DNA from: Microbulbifer sp. SAOS-129_SWC
GTDB lineage: Bacteria > Pseudomonadota > Gammaproteobacteria > Pseudomonadales > Cellvibrionaceae
Direction: 5' to 3'
NCBI RefSeq assembly: GCF_039696035.1
Contig: NZ_CP155567.1
Span: 1,377,501 to 1,441,500 of the forward strand
DNA: 64,000 bases
Under the pieces are notes generated by a model. It saw nothing but the letters and a program-made list of their open reading frames with translations, did no database searches and was not told the origin of the DNA. Shown here in pieces: positions 9,925 to 22,191 of this stretch. A program made the position numbers and the translations under genes. Every line of letters starts with the position of its first letter. Position 1 is the stretch's first letter.

Positions 9925-10956
9925 TCAGGCTGCGGAGCAGTACGTCGCCCCCGGTTCGGAGATCCCGTGGGGCAACCGGTCGACGGGGCTCAGAACGCCC
10001 TTGCCGCCACGGTTGATCACATGAGTGTAGATTTCCGTAGTGCTGATATCCGCGTGCCCCAATAGCTCCTGAATGGTGCGGAGGTCGTAACCGCTTTCCA
10101 GCAAGTGGGTAGCGAAGCTGTGGCGGAATGCGTGTGCCCGCGCAGGCTTGTTGACCCCGGCCGCAGCAACAGCCGCACGAATCTGCTTCGCCAGCGCCGA
10201 AGCGTGCAGGTGGTGGCGCCGGCAAACCCCCGAGCGCGGGTCCGCGCCGAGCCGGCCGGCAGGAAACAGATACTGCCACGCCAGAGCGCGGCCTGCACTG
10301 GGGTACTTACGTTCCAGTGCATTGGGCAGGTAAACCTCACCGTAGCCCCGCTGCAAATCCTGACGGTGCAGCAAGTCCACAAACTCTATTTGCCGCTGTA
10401 GTGCCGGAATCAGCGCCTGGGGCAGGATCGTCGAGCGATCCTTATTGCCCTTACCCCCGCGCACGAAGAGATTGCCACTGTCAAAGTCCAGATCCTTGAT
10501 CCGCAGTGACAGTAGCTCTGCACAGCGCACTCCGCTGCCATACATCAGTTCCACCATAAGGCGGTAAACGCCGGGCAAGTGCTGCAGTATTGCCTGTATC
10601 TCAGTGCGGCTGTATACCACCGGCAAGCGCCGGTACTCTCTGGCAGGTGAAAACTGTAAATTGGAGATATCGACTTCCAGAAAGCGCTTGTAGAGATAAA
10701 CCAGCGCATTCAGTGCAATGCGCTGAGTATTTACTGCACATTCGCCGTTGATGGCAAGGTGATTCAAGAACGCCTCCACCTCCACTACACCCAGCTCACG
10801 CGGATGGCGGAGCTTGTGAAAGTGGATAAAGCGCTTAATCCAATGCGCATATGTTTGCTCGGTACGATAGGCCAATCCCGCTGCGCGAATATGGCGACGC
10901 AGTTGCACCATGAAGCGCTCGGAATGTGCCGGAATAGAATGGCGGATATCATCCAT
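9925..10956 (-). CDS. intI: Integron integrase (tyrosine recombinase)
   Basis: A 343-residue tyrosine recombinase that inserts and excises cassettes by attI x attC and attC x attC recombination. The catalytic set is seen: Arg144 ([10 protein letters not shown]), Lys near 169, His275 and Arg278 (HAFRH), His301 (LLGHADIS) and Tyr310 (EIYTH). These lie almost exactly at IntI1 spacing (146, 277, 280, 303, 312). The extra IntI patch between the second and third conserved boxes is present ([27 protein letters not shown] region, about 236-262), separating it from XerC/D. ATG 10956 is chosen because GGAGG lies five bases upstream. The gene is intact, so cassette shuffling may be active. Confidence 0.97.
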
Positions 10957-11015: not shown

Positions 11016-11274
11016 TCCGAATTCAAGAGCCAGAGCTTCTATCCACACGGAAAAACACGTAACTTGTTGACTTTAAAGGCTTTGAGTTCTGGATAAAAAG
11101 CCAAGGGTGGTTTTCGACGCCACGAGGCTTCGCCTTATATCCGAGTTCGAAAAAAATACAGGTTTCTCTAAGCAGTTGATTTTAATTAGGTTTTACTGAT
11201 GGTGGAAGTGACTTGACTCGGGATATAAGGCCAAATGGATATGAAGCCATTGGCTTTTGAATTAACTGTTATTA
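11016..11274 (+). other. attI recombination region of the integron
   Basis: Sequence between the intI promoter and the first cassette. The crossover is placed at G11268|TT, because the following bases (ttattacggcaacc) are exactly the start of the 393-bp cassette found three more times after attC sites. The region holds an inverted pair, ccttatatccgag (11133-11145) and ctcgggatataagg (11217-11230), which could be integrase-binding sites. A possible weak cassette promoter, TTGACT (11067) - 19 bases - GATAAA (11092), points into the array. No gene is seen. Confidence 0.7.
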
Positions 11275-11661
11275 CGGCAACCAAAATTCTGGTTGGAAAA
11301 TTTAGAAACGCGGAAGTTTTGTGCCGTTTAAGAGCGTTTTCAGCATCGGGTATGTCGCATGGTTCCAGGTTGGCAGTTTCGCTCCTAGAGCCTTCGTTCA
11401 ACAAATGTGGTTCAGCACCTTCAATCCAGTATTGTAGGTGCCGGTAAGAGAATTCACGGGCGGGTAAGTTTTGGTATTCTTTCTCGTCTTAATTGGGCCG
11501 CGGCCCTCCGCTGCGCTGCGGGCAGCGTGCCAGTAGTTCGTGCAAACCGTGCCTTTAATAACTAGGCCAAGCAGCATCGCCCGCGCCCTTCGGGCGCCGG
11601 CTGGACGGCCTACGCGGCGCGCTACGCACGCCAAACGCTCCGGCCGCCGCTGTTGGCAACG
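11269..11661 (+). repeat. Cassette 1: 393-bp gene-less cassette, copy 1
   Basis: First array cassette, from the attI crossover to the attC at 11556-11667. It is identical by eye to copy 2 (12957-13349) and differs at a modest number of positions from copies 3 and 4. No frame with a proper start and ribosome site is seen. Minus-strand frames exist, but one runs through the attC and differences between copies mostly change the encoded residues, which argues against coding. It could carry a promoter, a small RNA or nothing expressed. Confidence 0.9.
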
Positions 11662-12908: not shown

Positions 12909-12962
12909 CAAGCGCGTCAAAAGCGACGCTCGTACCTCGCGCGCTTTACGCGGGCGTTATTA
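12903..12962 (+). other. attC site of cassette 4 (short)
   Basis: Only 60 bp, the shortest in the array: R'' ACTTAAC (12903), the arms aagcgcgtcaa and gcgcgctttacgcg, and R' GTTATTA (12956). Confidence 0.85.
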
Positions 12963-13349
12963 CGGCAACCAAAATTCTGGTTGGAAAATTTAGAAACGCG
13001 GAAGTTTTGTGCCGTTTAAGAGCGTTTTCAGCATCGGGTATGTCGCATGGTTCCAGGTTGGCAGTTTCGCTCCTAGAGCCTTCGTTCAACAAATGTGGTT
13101 CAGCACCTTCAATCCAGTATTGTAGGTGCCGGTAAGAGAATTCACGGGCGGGTAAGTTTTGGTATTCTTTCTCGTCTTAATTGGGCCGCGGCCCTCCGCT
13201 GCGCTGCGGGCAGCGTGCCAGTAGTTCGTGCAAACCGTGCCTTTAATAACTAGGCCAAGCAGCATCGCCCGCGCCCTTCGGGCGCCGGCTGGACGGCCTA
13301 CGCGGCGCGCTACGCACGCCAAACGCTCCGGCCGCCGCTGTTGGCAACG
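12957..13349 (+). repeat. Cassette 5: 393-bp gene-less cassette, copy 2
   Basis: Identical by eye to copy 1 over its full length. Identity between non-adjacent copies indicates recent duplication or re-insertion. Confidence 0.92.
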
Positions 13350-14124: not shown

Positions 14125-14262
14125 CAAACGCAAGCAGGATGCTCCGGCCCTTTGGGCCTCCGCGGGACGCCCAACGCTATGCACGTTTTGTGCGGGTCGC
14201 TACGCTCCCAGTTTCGCACAAAACGTGCATAGCATTGGTCGCCCCTGTTGCGGGCGTTATGC
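14119..14262 (+). other. attC site of cassette 7 (long)
   Basis: 144 bp with R'' ACTTAAC (14119) and R' GTTATGC (14256). The inner arms ctatgcacgttttgtgcg and its complement form a long stem. Confidence 0.85.
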
Positions 14263-14682
14263 ATCCGGTAGTTCAGAACGGATTTAGAGGGAAACTAGAT
14301 CGTGAAGAAAAAGCATTTTGAAAATTGGTCCAAGACAAGAGAAAAGGGAAGATCAAAATTTATCCTTATTAATGGATTACTGGCTTGGGGTTTGCCAATG
14401 TTTTTGGTCATGACATTCATAGCTAATAAGCCTGATGACGGGCAGTGGTCGCCAATTTTTATAGCTTTTAGTGCTGTCCTCTGGTCCCTGGGAGGTTTGG
14501 CTTTTGGCTATTTTGTATGGGCGTCAACTGAGCGCTCTTACAAAAAGGAACTCGCAAAGCAGAAAAATGCATAACAAACAGCGGCAGAGCGACAGCCAAC
14601 GCTATGCACCTTTTGTGTTACTCGCTGGCGCTCAAACATTAACACAAAATGCGCTCCACGTTGGCTGCGCCTGCGCTGAGCG
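14257..14682 (+). repeat. Cassette 8: 426-bp membrane-protein cassette, copy 1
   Basis: This complete cassette, including its attC, is identical by eye to cassette 12 (16490-16915). Confidence 0.95.
14302..14574 (+). CDS. Cassette 8: two-helix membrane protein, unknown function (copy 1)
   Basis: A 90-residue protein with a basic N-terminus (MKKKHFENWSKTREKGRSK) and two membrane segments (residues about 22-42 and 51-73), then a basic tail (KKELAKQKNA). This suggests both ends in the cytoplasm. The start is GTG 14302, with tagaggg about 12 bases upstream. No family recognised. The same gene occurs unchanged at 16535-16807. Confidence 0.8.
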   Translation: MKKKHFENWSKTREKGRSKFILINGLLAWGLPMFLVMTFIANKPDDGQWSPIFIAFSAVLWSLGGLAFGYFVWASTERSYKKELAKQKNA

Positions 14683-14703: not shown

Positions 14704-15411
14704 ATGTTCACTCAATCAGTAATTGAAAGCCTTGGCTATTATGTCTATTTCCTACAAGATCCTTTTGATAAAGAGGTTTTTTATATTGGCAAGGGCGTAG
14801 GAAATAGAATATTTGACCATTTAGAGTGCGCAATTACATCTGATTTAGAATCTGAAAAGCTTGATCGCATTAGAGAAATTAATAACAAAGGTGGCCTGGT
14901 TGAGCATTTTATATTGCGTCACGGGCTGACTGAAGATATGTCATTTGAAGTGGAGGCTGCTTTAATTGACTTTGTTGGGATGAAAAACCTTTCGAATTTA
15001 CAATCCGGCCATAATTCATCGGACTATGGGCTAAAAACTGTTGAAGAAATTTCATCTATGTACCAAGCAGAAGAGTTCGCAGCCGAAGATCCGGTCATTT
15101 TGATCAATATTAATAAACTCTATGATCGTAAAATGACCGAAGAAGAACTATACCAAGCAACTCGTAGATCTTGGGTTGTCGGTGAAAGACGGGAGAAGGC
15201 GAAATATGCCATCCCTACATATAGAGGATTGACTCGTGAAGTTTATGAAATTCAAAATTGGGTGAATGTTCCTGAACATGGCCCTAGAAGATTTGAATTC
15301 TCGGGGATTCTTGCTGACGAGGATGTTCGACAAAAATACCGATACAAATCCATTAAAAAACATTTTCCAAAAGGTGCAGCTAATCCTATTAAGTATGTTG
15401 GCCTCGATTAG
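14704..15411 (+). CDS. Cassette 9: GIY-YIG nuclease domain protein (LEM-3-like/COG3680 type)
   Basis: A 235-residue protein with a variant GIY-YIG fold at its N-terminus. YYVYFLQDP (residues 12-20) replaces GIY, and VFYIGKGVGNRIFDH (25-39) carries the YIG and the conserved Arg. A later Glu in FEVEAALIDF (about 82-84) fits the metal-binding Glu. This arrangement matches GIY-YIG proteins related to the LEM-3 nuclease. The C-terminal half is of unknown type. A DNA-cutting role, possibly in defence or repair, is inferred and not shown. AAGGAAG precedes ATG 14704 closely. Largest intact predicted soluble product in the array. Confidence 0.82.
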   Translation: MFTQSVIESLGYYVYFLQDPFDKEVFYIGKGVGNRIFDHLECAITSDLESEKLDRIREINNKGGLVEHFILRHGLTEDMSFEVEAALIDFVGMKNLSNLQSGHNSSDYGLKTVEEISSMYQAEEFAAEDPVILININKLYDRKMTEEELYQATRRSWVVGERREKAKYAIPTYRGLTREVYEIQNWVNVPEHGPRRFEFSGILADEDVRQKYRYKSIKKHFPKGAANPIKYVGLD

Positions 15412-15418
15412 AAAAATG

Positions 15419-15517
15419 GCATAACAAGCGCGTGCACATGACCTTCGGCAACTGTCACCTTTTGTGCATTCGCACAAAAGCTGCCAGTTACCTCGGCCTG
15501 TGACGCGGGCGTTATTA
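15419..15517 (+). other. attC site of cassette 9
   Basis: 99 bp with R'' GCATAAC (15419) and R' GTTATTA (15511), and inner arms ttttgtgc/gcacaaaa. It resembles the attC of cassette 11. Confidence 0.87.
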
Positions 15518-15904
15518 CGGCAACCAAAATTCTGGTTGGAAAATTTAGAAACGCGGAAGTTTTGTGCCGTTTAAGAGCGTTTTCAGTATCGGGTATGTCG
15601 CAAGGTTCCAGGCTGGCAGTTTCGCTCCTAGAGCCTTCGTTCAACAAATGTGGTTCCGCACCTTCAATCCAGTATTGTAGGTGCCGGTAAGAGAATTCAC
15701 GGGCGGGTAAGTTTTGGTATTCTTTCTCGTCTTAATTGGGTTGCGGCCCTCCGCTGCGCTACGGGCAGCGTGCCAGTAGGTCGTGCAAACCGTGCCTTTA
15801 ATAACTAGGCCAAGCAGCATCGCCCGCGCCCTTCGGGCGCCGGCTGGACGGCCTACGCGGCGCGCTACGCACGCCAAGCGCTCCGGCCGCCGCTGTTGGC
15901 AACG
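15512..15904 (+). repeat. Cassette 10: 393-bp gene-less cassette, copy 3
   Basis: Same length as copies 1 and 2 with scattered base changes (for example cagtatcggg for cagcatcggg, and attgggttgcgg for attgggccgcgg). Confidence 0.92.
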
Positions 15905-16396: not shown

Positions 16397-16495
16397 ACCT
16401 AACAAGCGGCAGCAACGGACTTGGCAAAACTGTCACATTTTGTGCGCTGCACAAAAGCCGCCACTTTTACCAAGCCGCTGTACCGGGCGTTATGC
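16397..16495 (+). other. attC site of cassette 11
   Basis: 99 bp with R'' ACCTAAC (16397) and R' GTTATGC (16489). Confidence 0.87.
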
Positions 16496-16915
16496 ATCCG
16501 GTAGTTCAGAACGGATTTAGAGGGAAACTAGATCGTGAAGAAAAAGCATTTTGAAAATTGGTCCAAGACAAGAGAAAAGGGAAGATCAAAATTTATCCTT
16601 ATTAATGGATTACTGGCTTGGGGTTTGCCAATGTTTTTGGTCATGACATTCATAGCTAATAAGCCTGATGACGGGCAGTGGTCGCCAATTTTTATAGCTT
16701 TTAGTGCTGTCCTCTGGTCCCTGGGAGGTTTGGCTTTTGGCTATTTTGTATGGGCGTCAACTGAGCGCTCTTACAAAAAGGAACTCGCAAAGCAGAAAAA
16801 TGCATAACAAACAGCGGCAGAGCGACAGCCAACGCTATGCACCTTTTGTGTTACTCGCTGGCGCTCAAACATTAACACAAAATGCGCTCCACGTTGGCTG
16901 CGCCTGCGCTGAGCG
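16490..16915 (+). repeat. Cassette 12: 426-bp membrane-protein cassette, copy 2
   Basis: Identical by eye to cassette 8, including the attC, but placed four cassettes further on. Confidence 0.95.
16535..16807 (+). CDS. Cassette 12: two-helix membrane protein, unknown function (copy 2)
   Basis: Identical to the 90-residue product at 14302-14574: basic N-terminus, two membrane segments and a lysine-rich tail, with the same GTG start and upstream gaggg. Having two unchanged copies in one array suggests recent duplication by the integrase, not long-term selection for two genes. Confidence 0.8.
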   Translation: MKKKHFENWSKTREKGRSKFILINGLLAWGLPMFLVMTFIANKPDDGQWSPIFIAFSAVLWSLGGLAFGYFVWASTERSYKKELAKQKNA

Positions 16916-17547: not shown

Positions 17548-17685
17548 CAAGGCGAGGCAATTCGTTCCGGCCCTTCGGGCCTCCACCGGACAGCTTACTT
17601 TGTGCACTTTATTCGCAGGTCGCTTCACTCCCATTTTTGCGCATAAAGCGCACAAAGCAAGCTGCCGCTGCTCGCGGCGTTATTA
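17542..17685 (+). other. attC site of cassette 14
   Basis: 144 bp with R'' CTATAAC (17542) and R' GTTATTA (17679). It shares gcttactttgtgcactt with the attC of cassette 6 and also holds a cggcccttcgggcc hairpin. Confidence 0.85.
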
Positions 17686-18072
17686 CGGCAACCAAAATTC
17701 TGGCTGGAAAATTTAGAAGCGCGGAAGCTTTGTGCCGTTTAATAGCGTTTTCAGCATCTGGTTTGTCGCAAGGTTCCAGGTTGGCAGTTTCGCTCCTAGA
17801 GCCTTCGTTCAAAAAATGTGGTTCCGCACCTTCAATCCAGTATTGTAGGCGCCGGTAAGAGAATTCACTGACGGGTAAGGTTTGGTATTCTTCCTCGTCT
17901 TAATTGGGCGGCGGCCCTCCGCTGCGCTACGGGCAGCGTGCCAGTAGGTCGTGCAAACCGTGCCTTTAATAACTAGGCCAAGCAGCATCGCCCGCGCCCT
18001 TCGGGCGCCGGCTGGACGGCCTACGCGGCGCGCTACGCACGCCAAGCGCTCCGGCCGCCGCTGTTGGCAACG
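17680..18072 (+). repeat. Cassette 15: 393-bp gene-less cassette, copy 4
   Basis: The most diverged copy (for example ttctggctgg, gaagcgcggaagc, cactgacgggtaagg), still exactly 393 bp with no length change. Confidence 0.92.
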
Positions 18073-18556: not shown

Positions 18557-18572
18557 GTCAGTGAGTAGTAGC

Positions 18573-18932
18573 ATGATCGAGCGGATAGCTGGCATATATA
18601 AAGGAAGGAATAAGTCTTCAGCGTACAAAGATCTTGTGTTCTCTGTCGCCACTTCACCTGATACCAGCGTAGGTACAAAAGAGCAGACCAAACAGGCTCT
18701 TGAGGTCATCTCTGAAAATTTGAAGGAGCTGGGGTCAAGTAAAGAGAGCATACTCTCGGCACAAGTTTTTATCGCTAAAATGGATGAGAAGGCAGAAATG
18801 GATGAAGCCTGGTGTTCCTGGATTGGGCCAAATCAAGAAAACTGGCCCCAGAGAGCCTGCTTAGGCGTTGAGTTGGAAGGTGCAGTGCTGGTGGAAGTCA
18901 CTGTAGTAGCGGTTAGATCCCCAAACTGTTAA
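18573..18932 (+). CDS. Cassette 17: RidA-like (YjgF/YER057c/UK114) family protein
   Basis: A 119-residue protein with the RidA fold order. GRNKSSAYKDLVFSVATSP at the N-terminus stands for the usual R-S-AV-NGFVF-SGQ. It is followed by KEQTKQALEVISENLKELGSS, VFIAKMDEK, and the C-terminal ACLGVELEGAVLVEVTVVA. RidA enzymes deaminate reactive enamine/imine intermediates using a conserved C-terminal Arg. The expected Arg in this region (QRACLGVEL) is present, so activity is possible. GAG upstream favours ATG 18573; GTG 18561 is an alternative. A RidA paralogue as a mobile cassette is unusual. Confidence 0.82.
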   Translation: MIERIAGIYKGRNKSSAYKDLVFSVATSPDTSVGTKEQTKQALEVISENLKELGSSKESILSAQVFIAKMDEKAEMDEAWCSWIGPNQENWPQRACLGVELEGAVLVEVTVVAVRSPNC

Positions 18933-19576: not shown

Positions 19577-20690
19577 TCCAAAATAAAGATGCGCGGTTTC
19601 AAGTAATAACTGCAATTTCTTCATGCAGCGAGCAAATCGTCCCGCCGCCCCATAAATAGCTCATTTGGCGATCGTCCACCCCTGGTCGCTCTTGGTCTGC
19701 TGTTCAGGCGGTCCATGACAAACTGAACCTGCTCATCCGATACCGTACTGAAGTCCGTTCCCTTCGGGAAATATTGCCGAATAAGACCATTGGTATTTTC
19801 ATTGATTCCACGCTCCCATGATGCATAGGGATGGGCAAAGTAAATATCCGCCTCCAGTCCTTTCGCGATCTCTTCATGACCGGCAAACTCAAGGCCATTG
19901 TCGAACGTGATTGTTTTGACTTTCTCCTTAAGGTGTACCATATGCGCAACCGCTGCAGCGGCGAGCAAGTCGGCTCTCTTGCCCGTCAGCAACACAATGA
20001 CCGTATACAGCGATTTGCGCTCTACCAGGGTCAATAGCGCACCTTTGCGGCCTTTGCCGATGACTGTATCGCCTTCCCAGTCGCCAATTCGGTTACCCAG
20101 GTCAACAACCTCAGGGCGTTCATCAATACTCACTCTGTTCTTGATCTTGCCGCGTTGATCGTTGCTGCCGTAACGCTTGCGGTAGGGCTTTGACGCTACT
20201 CGCAGATGCGTATACAAATCGCCGCCATGAGCCTTGTCGGCATAGATCAGCTGATAAATTGTCTCATGATGTAAGGAAATACCCGTACACCGTTTCAGAT
20301 AATCTGCTACCTGCTGCGGGCTTAACTCCTGCCGGAGCAGCGTTTCAATCTGATCACGTACCTCGTCCGTCACCTTCCGAGCCTTGTGGGCCCCATACCG
20401 TCTAACATTCGACAGCTTTTGAGCTTGCCCGGGCCGGTACCCTCGTAGCCCTTTGTTGCGACGCAGCTCTCGACAGATCGTAGAGGGATGCCTTTCCAGA
20501 AGTTCGGCAATCTCTATTTGCGAGTGCCCGGCTTTCTTCAGACTATAAATCTGGTATCGTTCGTTCTCGGTCAGCTGGTTGTAGCTCATCAGTGCTTTTC
20601 TCTTGGCGGGGAGAAGCGCCGACTCTACCAGCTGGCCTCTCTCTTACCAATTGCACTTATTATCCGAAACCGCGATGCCTTTTATTTGGA
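19577..20690 (-). mobile_element. IS30-family insertion sequence inside cassette 19
   Basis: About 1.11 kb bounded by long imperfect inverted repeats of about 41-42 bp. The left end reads tccaaaataaagatgcgcgg and on through taataactgcaatt (19577-19617). The right end, read on the minus strand, gives tccaaataaaaggcatcgcgg and on through taataagtgcaatt (20690-20649). The exact terminal bases and target duplication are uncertain by a few positions. It carries one transposase gene reading against the cassettes. Confidence 0.82.
19621..20589 (-). CDS. IS30 family transposase
   Basis: A 322-residue DDE transposase. The N-terminal helix-turn-helix (MSYNQLTENERYQIYSLKKA, then HSQIEIAELLERHPSTICRE) is typical of IS30. 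The catalytic triad fits Asp174 (GDWEGDTVIGKG), Asp230 (ITFDNGLEF) and Glu264 (INENTNGLIRQ). The length matches intact IS30 enzymes and no frameshift is seen, so the element may still be active. It lies antisense to cassette transcription. Confidence 0.95.
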   Translation of the reverse strand: MSYNQLTENERYQIYSLKKAGHSQIEIAELLERHPSTICRELRRNKGLRGYRPGQAQKLSNVRRYGAHKARKVTDEVRDQIETLLRQELSPQQVADYLKRCTGISLHHETIYQLIYADKAHGGDLYTHLRVASKPYRKRYGSNDQRGKIKNRVSIDERPEVVDLGNRIGDWEGDTVIGKGRKGALLTLVERKSLYTVIVLLTGKRADLLAAAAVAHMVHLKEKVKTITFDNGLEFAGHEEIAKGLEADIYFAHPYASWERGINENTNGLIRQYFPKGTDFSTVSDEQVQFVMDRLNSRPRATRGGRSPNELFMGRRDDLLAA

Positions 20691-21168
20691 TCGGCCGGAC
20701 CCCGAGTTGCGCTCTTCCTTTTCGTCTAAAGCTTGGAAGCCTGGTTTCTTGTCTAACGTCTTCTCAAAATTCGGTGGGGCACATGCCGATCAAGACGTAT
20801 CTGATTACCTCAGTCGAATTGTTGCCGTGGCCACGGCAAGACAGCTAAGCACGCGTTTTCATAATGCGACGGCTCATATTGTTTCCGATACTTTCTGTGA
20901 GTGTGGGCACATCACTTTCCAGAATGGGGTTGCCGCCAGCGGAGTGTTAGTCAGCCCAGAAGGCACAGAAAGAAAGGTCTCCATAAATAATGGAAGTATA
21001 GAGACCTCAGAATATTCTGTTGGTTCGGACTACCAGAAATACTTTTTTGAACAATCGAATGTGGATTTAGAAGAATTTTTGGAGTCATTGGAGTATTTGG
21101 GTCGCATCCAGGTCATGGCAAAAAAAGAATTAATTCCGAACGCTCAGTTTAATCTGGAGAAAATGTAA
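20691..21168 (+). pseudogene. Cassette 19 gene, 3' part after the IS element
   Basis: About 158 codons of the interrupted cassette gene, from the right IS end to a TAA inside the attC at 21163. It includes AVATARQLSTRFHNATAHIV and DTFCECGHITFQNGVAASGV, an acidic soluble domain I do not recognise. An apparent longer frame starting at 20488 lies inside the IS and is not its natural start. Confidence 0.72.
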
Positions 21169-21249
21169 CAAGGTATTGAGGTTTGTTTCGGGCCTAAGGC
21201 CCTCCACCGGGCGCCCTTGTCGGGGTGCCGCTGAATAACGGCGTTAGCT
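21163..21249 (+). other. attC site of cassette 19
   Basis: 87 bp with R'' atgtaac (21163, partly off consensus), a hairpin cgggcctaaggccc and R' GTTAGCT (21243). Confidence 0.82.
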
Positions 21250-21267
21250 GCCGAAAGAGGAATTATT

Positions 21268-22083
21268 GTGCATCTCAGATATCTAATAATATGTGTAATT
21301 TTTATTACGCCTTTGGCTCAGGCAGACATTGTATTTCTTGGAGATAAGATAAGAGTTCAACTGTTGGAGCAATGTGGAACTTCATGTTCAGCAGGAAATT
21401 ACAATATAACGACTCCAAAGCTGGACGCAAAGGCGTCAGAAGTAGCCTCTATTGCCAAGGATGCCAGTCATGCAGTCATAGTAGTCGATGCGACGCAAGG
21501 CCCGTTACCTATTGCTAGAGAGCATGTCCTAATAGCGAGGCAAGCTGGTGTACCAAGCTTGTCCATAATGTTCGCAAACGTTTCGGGCTTGAAGGGCATG
21601 GCAGATGCTGGAAAACTTCTCGAATTAGAAGAGGTGGAAGTTCGTGAAGTATTAAATATGTATGAGATGGGAGGGGACAATGCTCAGCTCTTTTATGATA
21701 GCGGCATCAAAGCTCTACCTAACATTAGTGCCAATGCAATAGGTTTAAAGTCTGTGTTATCCAAGATTGAGGCCATTCCTAAACGAAAGATATTTAATGT
21801 TAAATATTTTACTGGCAAGTCTTTAAACACTTATGTCTATCTTTTAACGCCTCAGGAAGCAAAATATACTGAGGCCTTATCCCAAGGTAGCTCTGTCAGC
21901 TTGTGGGTTAATGGGCAATTAACAAAAGGCAAGGTTGCTTCCCGCGGTTTGGCTCCGGGTGACAATGGAAAATTGAAACTTATTCTAGATAAACCGGTAA
22001 AGGCGGCTGAAGGTTCGCGTTACCTATTAGAGAAGAATGGAAAAATTATTGCGGCTGGCGCAGTTGTCAGTGTCAGCAGCTAA
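21268..22083 (+). CDS. Cassette 20: secreted EF-Tu-like protein (domain I and III remnants, no GTP site)
   Basis: A 271-residue protein with a signal peptide (MHLRYLIICVIFITPLAQA, cut after residue 19). Residues about 64-150 resemble the EF-Tu G domain: DASHAVIVVDATQGPLPIAR then EHVLIARQAGVP, ELEEVEVREVLNMYE, GGDNAQ and SGIKALP. Residues about 174-270 resemble EF-Tu domain III, with LAPGDNGKLKLILDKPV and RYLLEKNGKIIAAGAVV matching the EF-Tu PGDN and RFAIREGGRTVGAGVV regions. The P-loop (GHVDHGKT), DxxG and NKxD motifs are missing and domain II is absent, so it should not be a working translation GTPase. Location should be periplasmic or outside the cell. A RBS-like gagg precedes ATG 21268. 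Confidence 0.82.
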   Translation: MHLRYLIICVIFITPLAQADIVFLGDKIRVQLLEQCGTSCSAGNYNITTPKLDAKASEVASIAKDASHAVIVVDATQGPLPIAREHVLIARQAGVPSLSIMFANVSGLKGMADAGKLLELEEVEVREVLNMYEMGGDNAQLFYDSGIKALPNISANAIGLKSVLSKIEAIPKRKIFNVKYFTGKSLNTYVYLLTPQEAKYTEALSQGSSVSLWVNGQLTKGKVASRGLAPGDNGKLKLILDKPVKAAEGSRYLLEKNGKIIAAGAVVSVSS

Positions 22084-22191
22084 CAAGCACAAGCAAGGGG
22101 CCAAACTACGCTCCACCAATTTGCGGCTCGCTTTGCTCACTTTACCGCAAATTGGCTCCACTATGTTTGGCCCCTGTTGTGGGCGTTATGT
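22078..22191 (+). other. attC site of cassette 20
   Basis: 114 bp with R'' agctaac (22078) and R' GTTATGT (22185). Arms aggggccaaact ... tttggcccct and ccaatttgcgg ... ccgcaaattgg. Confidence 0.87.

Follow-up and report, generated by a model that had tools for sequence, protein, structure and literature searches.

A Probable EF-Tu-Derived Pseudo-GTPase with a Predicted Export Signal and no Domain II, Encoded on a Mobile Integron Cassette

Introduction

Few proteins are as conserved and constrained as EF-Tu, and how it comes to be found outside cells despite lacking a signal sequence is a matter of debate (PMC6822514). An integron cassette whose gene appears to specify an exported EF-Tu-like product raises the question of whether such a protein is an EF-Tu relative at all and, if so, what it could be doing once the machinery of translation has been left behind. 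Such a cassette lies in the window analyzed here, a stretch of 64,000 nucleotides from Microbulbifer sp. SAOS-129_SWC. The earlier note on this DNA had proposed a secreted, EF-Tu-like cassette protein lacking the GTP-binding motifs and domain II, and had speculated that it might serve as a decoy, an adhesin or a toxin/immunity factor.

Results

The open frame previously taken to be EF-Tu-like is present at the reported position and is intact (Table 1). Its product, termed pseudo-EF-Tu here, matches the EF-Tu model TIGR00485 in two stretches (E 3.1e-21; 75.6 bits, not reaching the cut-off of 522.4) as well as the PDB EF-Tu 4zv4_A (E 2.8e-20), with aa 65-170 aligned to domain I and aa 228-269 to domain III. 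The Pfam scores for GTP_EFTU (24.8 bits, cut-off 26.5) and GTP_EFTU_D3 (19.0, cut-off 27) both fall under their thresholds, as is expected for a diverged homologue. The TIGR00485 and 4zv4_A matches put the relationship to EF-Tu far past what chance would give. Two ordinary tuf genes, with open frames of 401 aa, lie elsewhere in the genome. The homologous gene at locus L001 has AAAGAGGAA ahead of its GTG start.

Table 1. Positions in the window of the pseudo-EF-Tu gene, its parts and the integron elements around it.
Feature	Position	Strand	Basis or remark
Cassette with the pseudo-EF-Tu gene	21243..22191	+	from boundary GTTAGCT (21243-21249) to attC R' (22185-22191)
Probable ribosome-binding site AGAGGA, ahead of the GTG start	21256..21261	+	sequence
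CDS of pseudo-EF-Tu, exported (predicted), without domain II	21268..22083	+	271 aa, GTG start, frame intact
Sec signal peptide, predicted (aa 1-19, last residues AQA)	21268..21324	+	hydrophobic N-terminus; low pLDDT
P-loop remnant LGDKIR	21337..21354	+	EF-Tu G18 and D21 kept, K24 replaced by R (column table)
Cys36-x3-Cys40, the sole two cysteines past the signal peptide	21373..21387	+	sequence
Helix C (aa 82-93), REHxxxARQ, equivalent to EF-Tu 114-125	21511..21546	+	AlphaFold2 model, column table
Helix D (aa 114-131), equivalent to EF-Tu 142-159, best-kept segment	21607..21660	+	AlphaFold2 model, column table
EF-Tu domain III barrel (aa 181-270), immediately after domain I	21808..22077	+	AlphaFold2 model
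attC of the pseudo-EF-Tu cassette	22078..22191	+	bottom strand folds at -27.9 kcal/mol (z -4.6)
Integron integrase	9973..10911	-	TIGR02249, 422.6 bits

Structure prediction, which the earlier note had suggested as a check, yields an AlphaFold2 model with the folds of EF-Tu domains I and III. The assignment of the recognizable segments to these two domains therefore stands, but domain I consists of more than the two segments initially seen, most of its fold being retained in the model, including strand 1 and the P-loop remnant LGDxxR. The reported absence of domain II is borne out, both by the model, from which it is missing, and by an alignment that is 95% gap over EF-Tu residues 209-295. The packing of the two domains resembles that of the GTP state, which is not diagnostic, since AlphaFold2 places a true EF-Tu in that state too.

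The residues kept and lost were counted in a column table of 43 exported proteins (16 of a cassette type, 19 of a middle type and 8 of a lipoprotein type), 67 EF-Tus and the genome's own EF-Tu, with retention taken as the mean share of EF-Tu-conserved residues kept over the 43 exported members. Retention is low throughout the nucleotide motifs (P-loop 0.29, switch I 0.11, switch II (DCPG) 0.06, NKxD 0.05, SAL 0.20), such that the described loss of the P-loop, DxxG (DCPGH) and NKxD motifs is confirmed and extends to switch I and SAL. It is 0.01 in domain II, which is mostly gaps, and 0.09-0.41 in the stretches of domain III. Helix D (0.77) and the helix C region (0.64) are the best kept, and although the members were found through shared sequence words, a procedure that somewhat favours well-kept stretches, this bias does not account for the losses. 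The same order, with helix D first and helix C next, holds within the cassette, middle and lipoprotein sub-clades taken singly (16, 19 and 8 rows). The EF-Tu residues R116, E117, H118, R123, Q124, E152, R154 and Y160 are kept in at least 40 of the 43 members, as are Y309, L311, E315, G371 and R373; the distance between Q124 and R373 has been used for tracking the interface of EF-Tu domains I and III (PMC6950810). Other residues are particular to the family (EF-Tu numbering): Asp106 (43/43), Asp172 (41/43) and an Arg in place of Lys24 (38/43). In the region of the former pocket pseudo-EF-Tu has Asp26, which is kept from EF-Tu, and the family-particular Arg29, Asp74 and Asp144; by alignment, these four correspond to the EF-Tu P-loop, the end of strand 4 and the residue preceding SAL.

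The signal peptide of the earlier note corresponds to a hydrophobic N-terminal segment that is present in pseudo-EF-Tu, on the evidence of hydropathy. A hydrophobic 10-mer ahead of strand 1 is found in 50/51 proteins of the cassette type, in 32/35 of the middle type and in all 8 of the lipoprotein type, and in none of 68 EF-Tus, with the export call for the family made from hydropathy only. A lipobox-like pattern occurs in 5/51 cassette-type and 1/35 middle-type proteins; the lipoprotein type was named by eye from its lipobox, and its own count of 8/8 holds by construction. One lipoprotein-type protein (P0179, Pirellulales) has, after its lipobox and ahead of the part related to pseudo-EF-Tu, an acyl-carrier-like PP-binding domain. 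The cassette clade combines its hydrophobic segment with a fixed pair of cysteines, exactly two being counted from strand 1 onward in 44/51 proteins, while 33/35 middle-type proteins have none, the lipoprotein type has 1 to 4 and EF-Tus 0 to 6. A cysteine count that is even and constant, as in the cassette type, would fit an oxidising compartment.

With regard to mobility, the assignment of the gene to an integron cassette is upheld by an attC of its own (z -4.6; only 1 of 200 shuffles folds as well) and by an integrase of the TIGR02249 type within the array. The R'' sequence AGCTAAC (22078-22084) is the exact complement, over 7/7 positions, of the GTTAGCT that lies 25 nt upstream of the start codon, and the gene is therefore one whole cassette. 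For the preceding cassette, whose attC lies at 21163-21248, folding is not better than that of shuffled sequences (z -0.5). In 40 kb of control DNA the initial attC script likewise reported sites, 5 on one strand and 4 on the other; counting was therefore restricted to sites that follow the stop codon directly and show R''/R' agreement. Of the 11 sequences put through the script, four (the window, L001, L002 and L004) gave a scored site and three of these have the 7/7 agreement, the two besides the window being L002 in Alcanivorax limicola (26 nt upstream of the start) and L004 in a Betaproteobacteria MAG (22 nt upstream). The R''/R' test found no R' ahead of the gene in L001, which is cassette-like by eye, as is L003, which is not one of the four with a scored site. 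There was no scored attC downstream of the gene in L005, L009 and the Pseudomonas copies L006, L007, L008 and L010. Three of ten carrier genomes (L003, L004 and L009) have an integron integrase above the cut-off.

The array has several other features. A 300-nt unit occurs in four copies (11260-11559, 12948-13247, 15503-15802 and 17671-17970; 93-100% identical to the reference), each followed by a near-identical 114-nt attC-like unit; the first three copies have no ORF of 80 aa or more, and the unit appears to be a repeated, non-coding cassette. A cassette with a 90-aa ORF is duplicated (14241-14540 and 16474-16773, 99% identical across 300 nt). The cassette at 14704-15411 (+) encodes a GIY-YIG protein matching PD-T4-3 (PADLOC E 1.1e-53; Pfam LEM-3-like GIY-YIG 4e-17). 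The product of the cassette at 18561-18932 is of the Ribonuc_L-PSP (RidA-like) kind (Pfam 6.4e-14) and matches PD-T4-2_B weakly (E 0.0021). Within the array, just upstream of the pseudo-EF-Tu cassette, a transposase gene (19621-20589 (-); HTH_38, rve), presumably IS30-like, seems to interrupt a cassette. The same genome has, outside the window, a second integron integrase (G000:C1:1228225-1229166), 69% identical to the first. Among the pseudo-EF-Tu loci examined no recurrent neighbour gene was seen, and of ten neighbour genes compared with PADLOC eight had no match, one matched many AAA-ATPase models and one, the gene that follows the cassette in Alcanivorax limicola (L002 8970-10586), matched DitA (E 1.7e-67).

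A search of 5.8 billion proteins returned 51 of the cassette type, including the Microbulbifer protein, at 34-100% identity and none with a domain II annotation; the alignment of this type holds the Microbulbifer protein and 45 of the 50 others (P0006, P0009, P0013, P0035 and P0051 were left out). A search with the L009 protein (Thermodesulfobacteriota) gave 538 matches, and among the 120 listed at least 43, L009 included, have the pseudo-EF-Tu build (P0052-P0092, P0094 and P0105; 22 sequences from this search were inspected), the rest having an EF-Tu domain annotation except P0153 (224 aa), which is unassigned. With P0092 as the query there were 1182 matches among 8000 candidates scored, and among the 120 listed at least 14 besides the query share the build (P0088 and P0172-P0184), three of them with the source names Tepidisphaerales, Pirellulales and Planctomycetota. 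In all, more than 100 listed protein clusters, some of them fragments, have this build. The computations show EF-Tu ancestry and fold, nucleotide motifs and a domain II that have been lost, and a wider family of the same construction. Because the model and the homologues both agree with an EF-Tu relative, neither a different fold nor a clearly different family assignment, the contrary outcomes named in the earlier note, was encountered. The features by which we propose the family are a signal-like N-terminus or lipobox, the lack of domain II, Asp106 and Asp172 (EF-Tu numbering) and the kept helices C and D, all of which were found.

A tree of 54 chosen rows, built by a quick method on 284 of 639 columns, sets 17 EF-Tus apart from 37 exported proteins (SH-aLRT 100), with support of 97, 95 and 83 for the cassette, middle and lipoprotein sub-clades; given the long branches, a single origin of the exported proteins is likely, not proven. 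Pseudo-EF-Tu is under purifying selection. The frame is open in all ten fetched loci, and dN/dS is 0.11 between Microbulbifer and L001, 0.16 between L004 and L005, 0.20-0.33 in nine further pairs with dS below 2.5 and 0.48 in the closest pair, L007/L010, with 33 of the 45 pairs past the dS limit of 2.5.

The family is also rare. At E 1e-35 the phylum scan (run at 1e-15) found a carrier in 1 of 398 genomes, the Microbulbifer genome itself (4e-100; next match 1e-31), and further scans found 1/120 in the taxonomic family of Microbulbifer, 1/345 in the phylum of L009, 1/298 in the genus of L008 and 2/300 in the order of L005, every carrier being a genome already known to have the gene; misses are possible, since at most 6 (phylum), 20 (family), 7 (L009 phylum) or 8 (genus, order) candidates were scored per genome. 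Scanning 84,980 species, each represented by a single genome, for a pattern gave 10 loci, and with pseudo-EF-Tu as query there was no match on plasmids and none among viral contigs. Among the open-licence PMC papers listed by searches directed at the exported pseudo-EF-Tu family there was no visible description of it, and the family has apparently not been described before.

Discussion

The analysis supports a mobile, exported, GTPase-dead relative of EF-Tu that has dispensed with domain II. As to what it does, we favour the view that it is an exported pseudo-GTPase acting as a non-enzymatic binding protein, a view that in our estimation has an even chance of being correct. The protein has lost domain II and what it needs for the nucleotide, and has kept, under selection, one face that docks proteins. 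The protein would be translocated by Sec, Cys36 and Cys40 would form a disulfide, and the body would consist of domain I docked on domain III with no need for a nucleotide. From the topology, the vacated pocket may be closed by the conserved Asp26, Arg29, Asp74 and Asp144. In EF-Tu, helix D (144-156) is the docking site of EF-Ts and L7/L12 (PMC5770553, PMC5574714), and the preserved face of helices C and D may in the same manner bind an extracytoplasmic partner. The purpose could be an accessory one suited to a cassette, in stress or defence, which is a guess. It should be noted that helices C and D could also have been retained for stability alone. Also counting against this view are the finding of members through shared words, the absence of a recurrent neighbour gene from the loci examined, and the dN/dS values of 0.48 in the closest pair and 0.20-0.33 in nine others.

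A more specific proposal, tenable if on balance unlikely, is that of an extracytoplasmic decoy, which would capture an incoming EF-Tu-targeting toxin, antibiotic or phage factor by means of helices C and D and the domain I-III surface. The docking-face residues of EF-Tu are indeed kept where catalysis is lost, the gene travels in mobile cassettes, the same array holds the cassette matching the anti-phage PD-T4-3 model (E 1.1e-53) and DitA is matched next to the L002 copy (E 1.7e-67). The last two are a lead by neighbourhood only, however, and integron neighbours are weak evidence; pseudo-EF-Tu itself matches none of the PADLOC families at E 0.1 (a library of systems described or candidate in 2023). 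Furthermore, the mapped EF-Tu-directed agents act on EF-Tu in the cytoplasm. The mapping took in CdiA-CT NC101, Lit, Doc and kirromycin, with CdiA-CT EC869, 96.154, Kp342 and Tse6 outside it, and argues against the decoy role suggested earlier, in that the sites of all four agents are missing or altered. Switch I, which we take to be where Lit cuts, is not kept, nor is Thr382, the presumed target of Doc, position 382 being V, I, L or P in 40/43 members with Thr absent from the residues shown. Of what we take to be the kirromycin-pocket positions, 124 (40/43) and 160 (42/43) are kept and 120 is Leu in 25/43, while 316 is Gly in 5/43 (all of the middle type) and 378 is Glu in 1/43. Position 375, where A375T is a resistance change (PMC5485169, PMC8625390), is Ala in 3/43, all of the lipoprotein type. 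The full elfamycin pocket (120, 124, 160, 316, 375, 378) is thus not kept by the family, positions 316, 375 and 378 being absent or changed in most members. Last, the site of CdiA-CT NC101 is domain II (PMC9086364), which pseudo-EF-Tu lacks.

It is also unlikely, in our judgment, that the nucleotide site has been rebuilt as a ligand or metal site composed of Asp26, Arg29, Asp74 and Asp144. The four are near-invariant, three are particular to the family, and by alignment they stand at the P-loop, the end of strand 4 and ahead of SAL; Asp26, however, is an EF-Tu residue and not new in the family, the set may be no more than salt bridges that fill an empty pocket, and no enzyme motif was recognised. 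A broader conjecture, which we hold quite doubtful, would make the exported proteins an ancient, multi-phylum, nucleotide-free family in which the EF-Ts and L7/L12 face has become a surface for capture outside the cytoplasm; integrons would have spread it to serve in immunity or competition, directed at some agent by which EF-Tu is recognised.

A surface adhesin or moonlighting factor is improbable. EF-Tu does occur on surfaces, where it attaches to host molecules although it has no signal sequence (PMC6822514), and the family has a signal-like N-terminus; however, the named carriers look mostly environmental or plant-associated, nothing resembling a signal for outer-membrane anchoring was seen in proteins of the cassette type, and the analysis turned up no sign of host binding, adhesion or toxicity. 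That pseudo-EF-Tu has a divergent pocket and continues to hydrolyse GTP or bind a nucleotide is highly improbable, for although the general G-domain fold is retained along with the P-loop residues Gly18 and Asp21, Lys24 is Arg in most members, Thr25 is lost, DCPGH, NKxD and SAL are largely gone, and free GTP is scarce outside the cytoplasm. A decaying remnant or spurious ORF, for which the loss of motifs might speak, can scarcely be credited given the many clusters of the same build, the lowest dN/dS of 0.11, the fixed cysteine pair and the open frames of the fetched loci.

Comparison with known systems

A natural EF-Tu paralogue that is cut down, has lost the GTPase motifs and has a predicted export signal suggests that selection can act on the core of EF-Tu for a role beyond the cytoplasm and apart from translation, and it offers a clean system for asking which surface of EF-Tu serves that job. 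To our knowledge, the exported pseudo-EF-Tus are the first such family. With EF-Tu itself (TIGR00485) pseudo-EF-Tu shares the fold of domain I, helices C and D included, the domain III barrel and the REHxxxxRQ and ELLELxExExREL segments, and differs from it in the missing GTP motifs and domain II and in its predicted export. Surface-exposed EF-Tu is likewise an EF-Tu protein beyond the cytoplasm, as pseudo-EF-Tu is predicted to be, but it is the ordinary factor of translation, which has no signal sequence (PMC6822514). Pseudo-EF-Tu, by comparison, is encoded by a separate gene, has a signal-like N-terminus and is devoid of the translation parts. Pseudo-GTPases have the GTPase fold without nucleotide binding and serve as binding scaffolds, and the likeness extends to each of these properties in the reading favoured here; we know of none that combines descent from EF-Tu, the lack of domain II and export. 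Engineered EF-Tu without domain 2 has domains I and III directly joined in a similar manner, but that construct is artificial and retains the GTPase motifs, whereas pseudo-EF-Tu is natural and has lost them.
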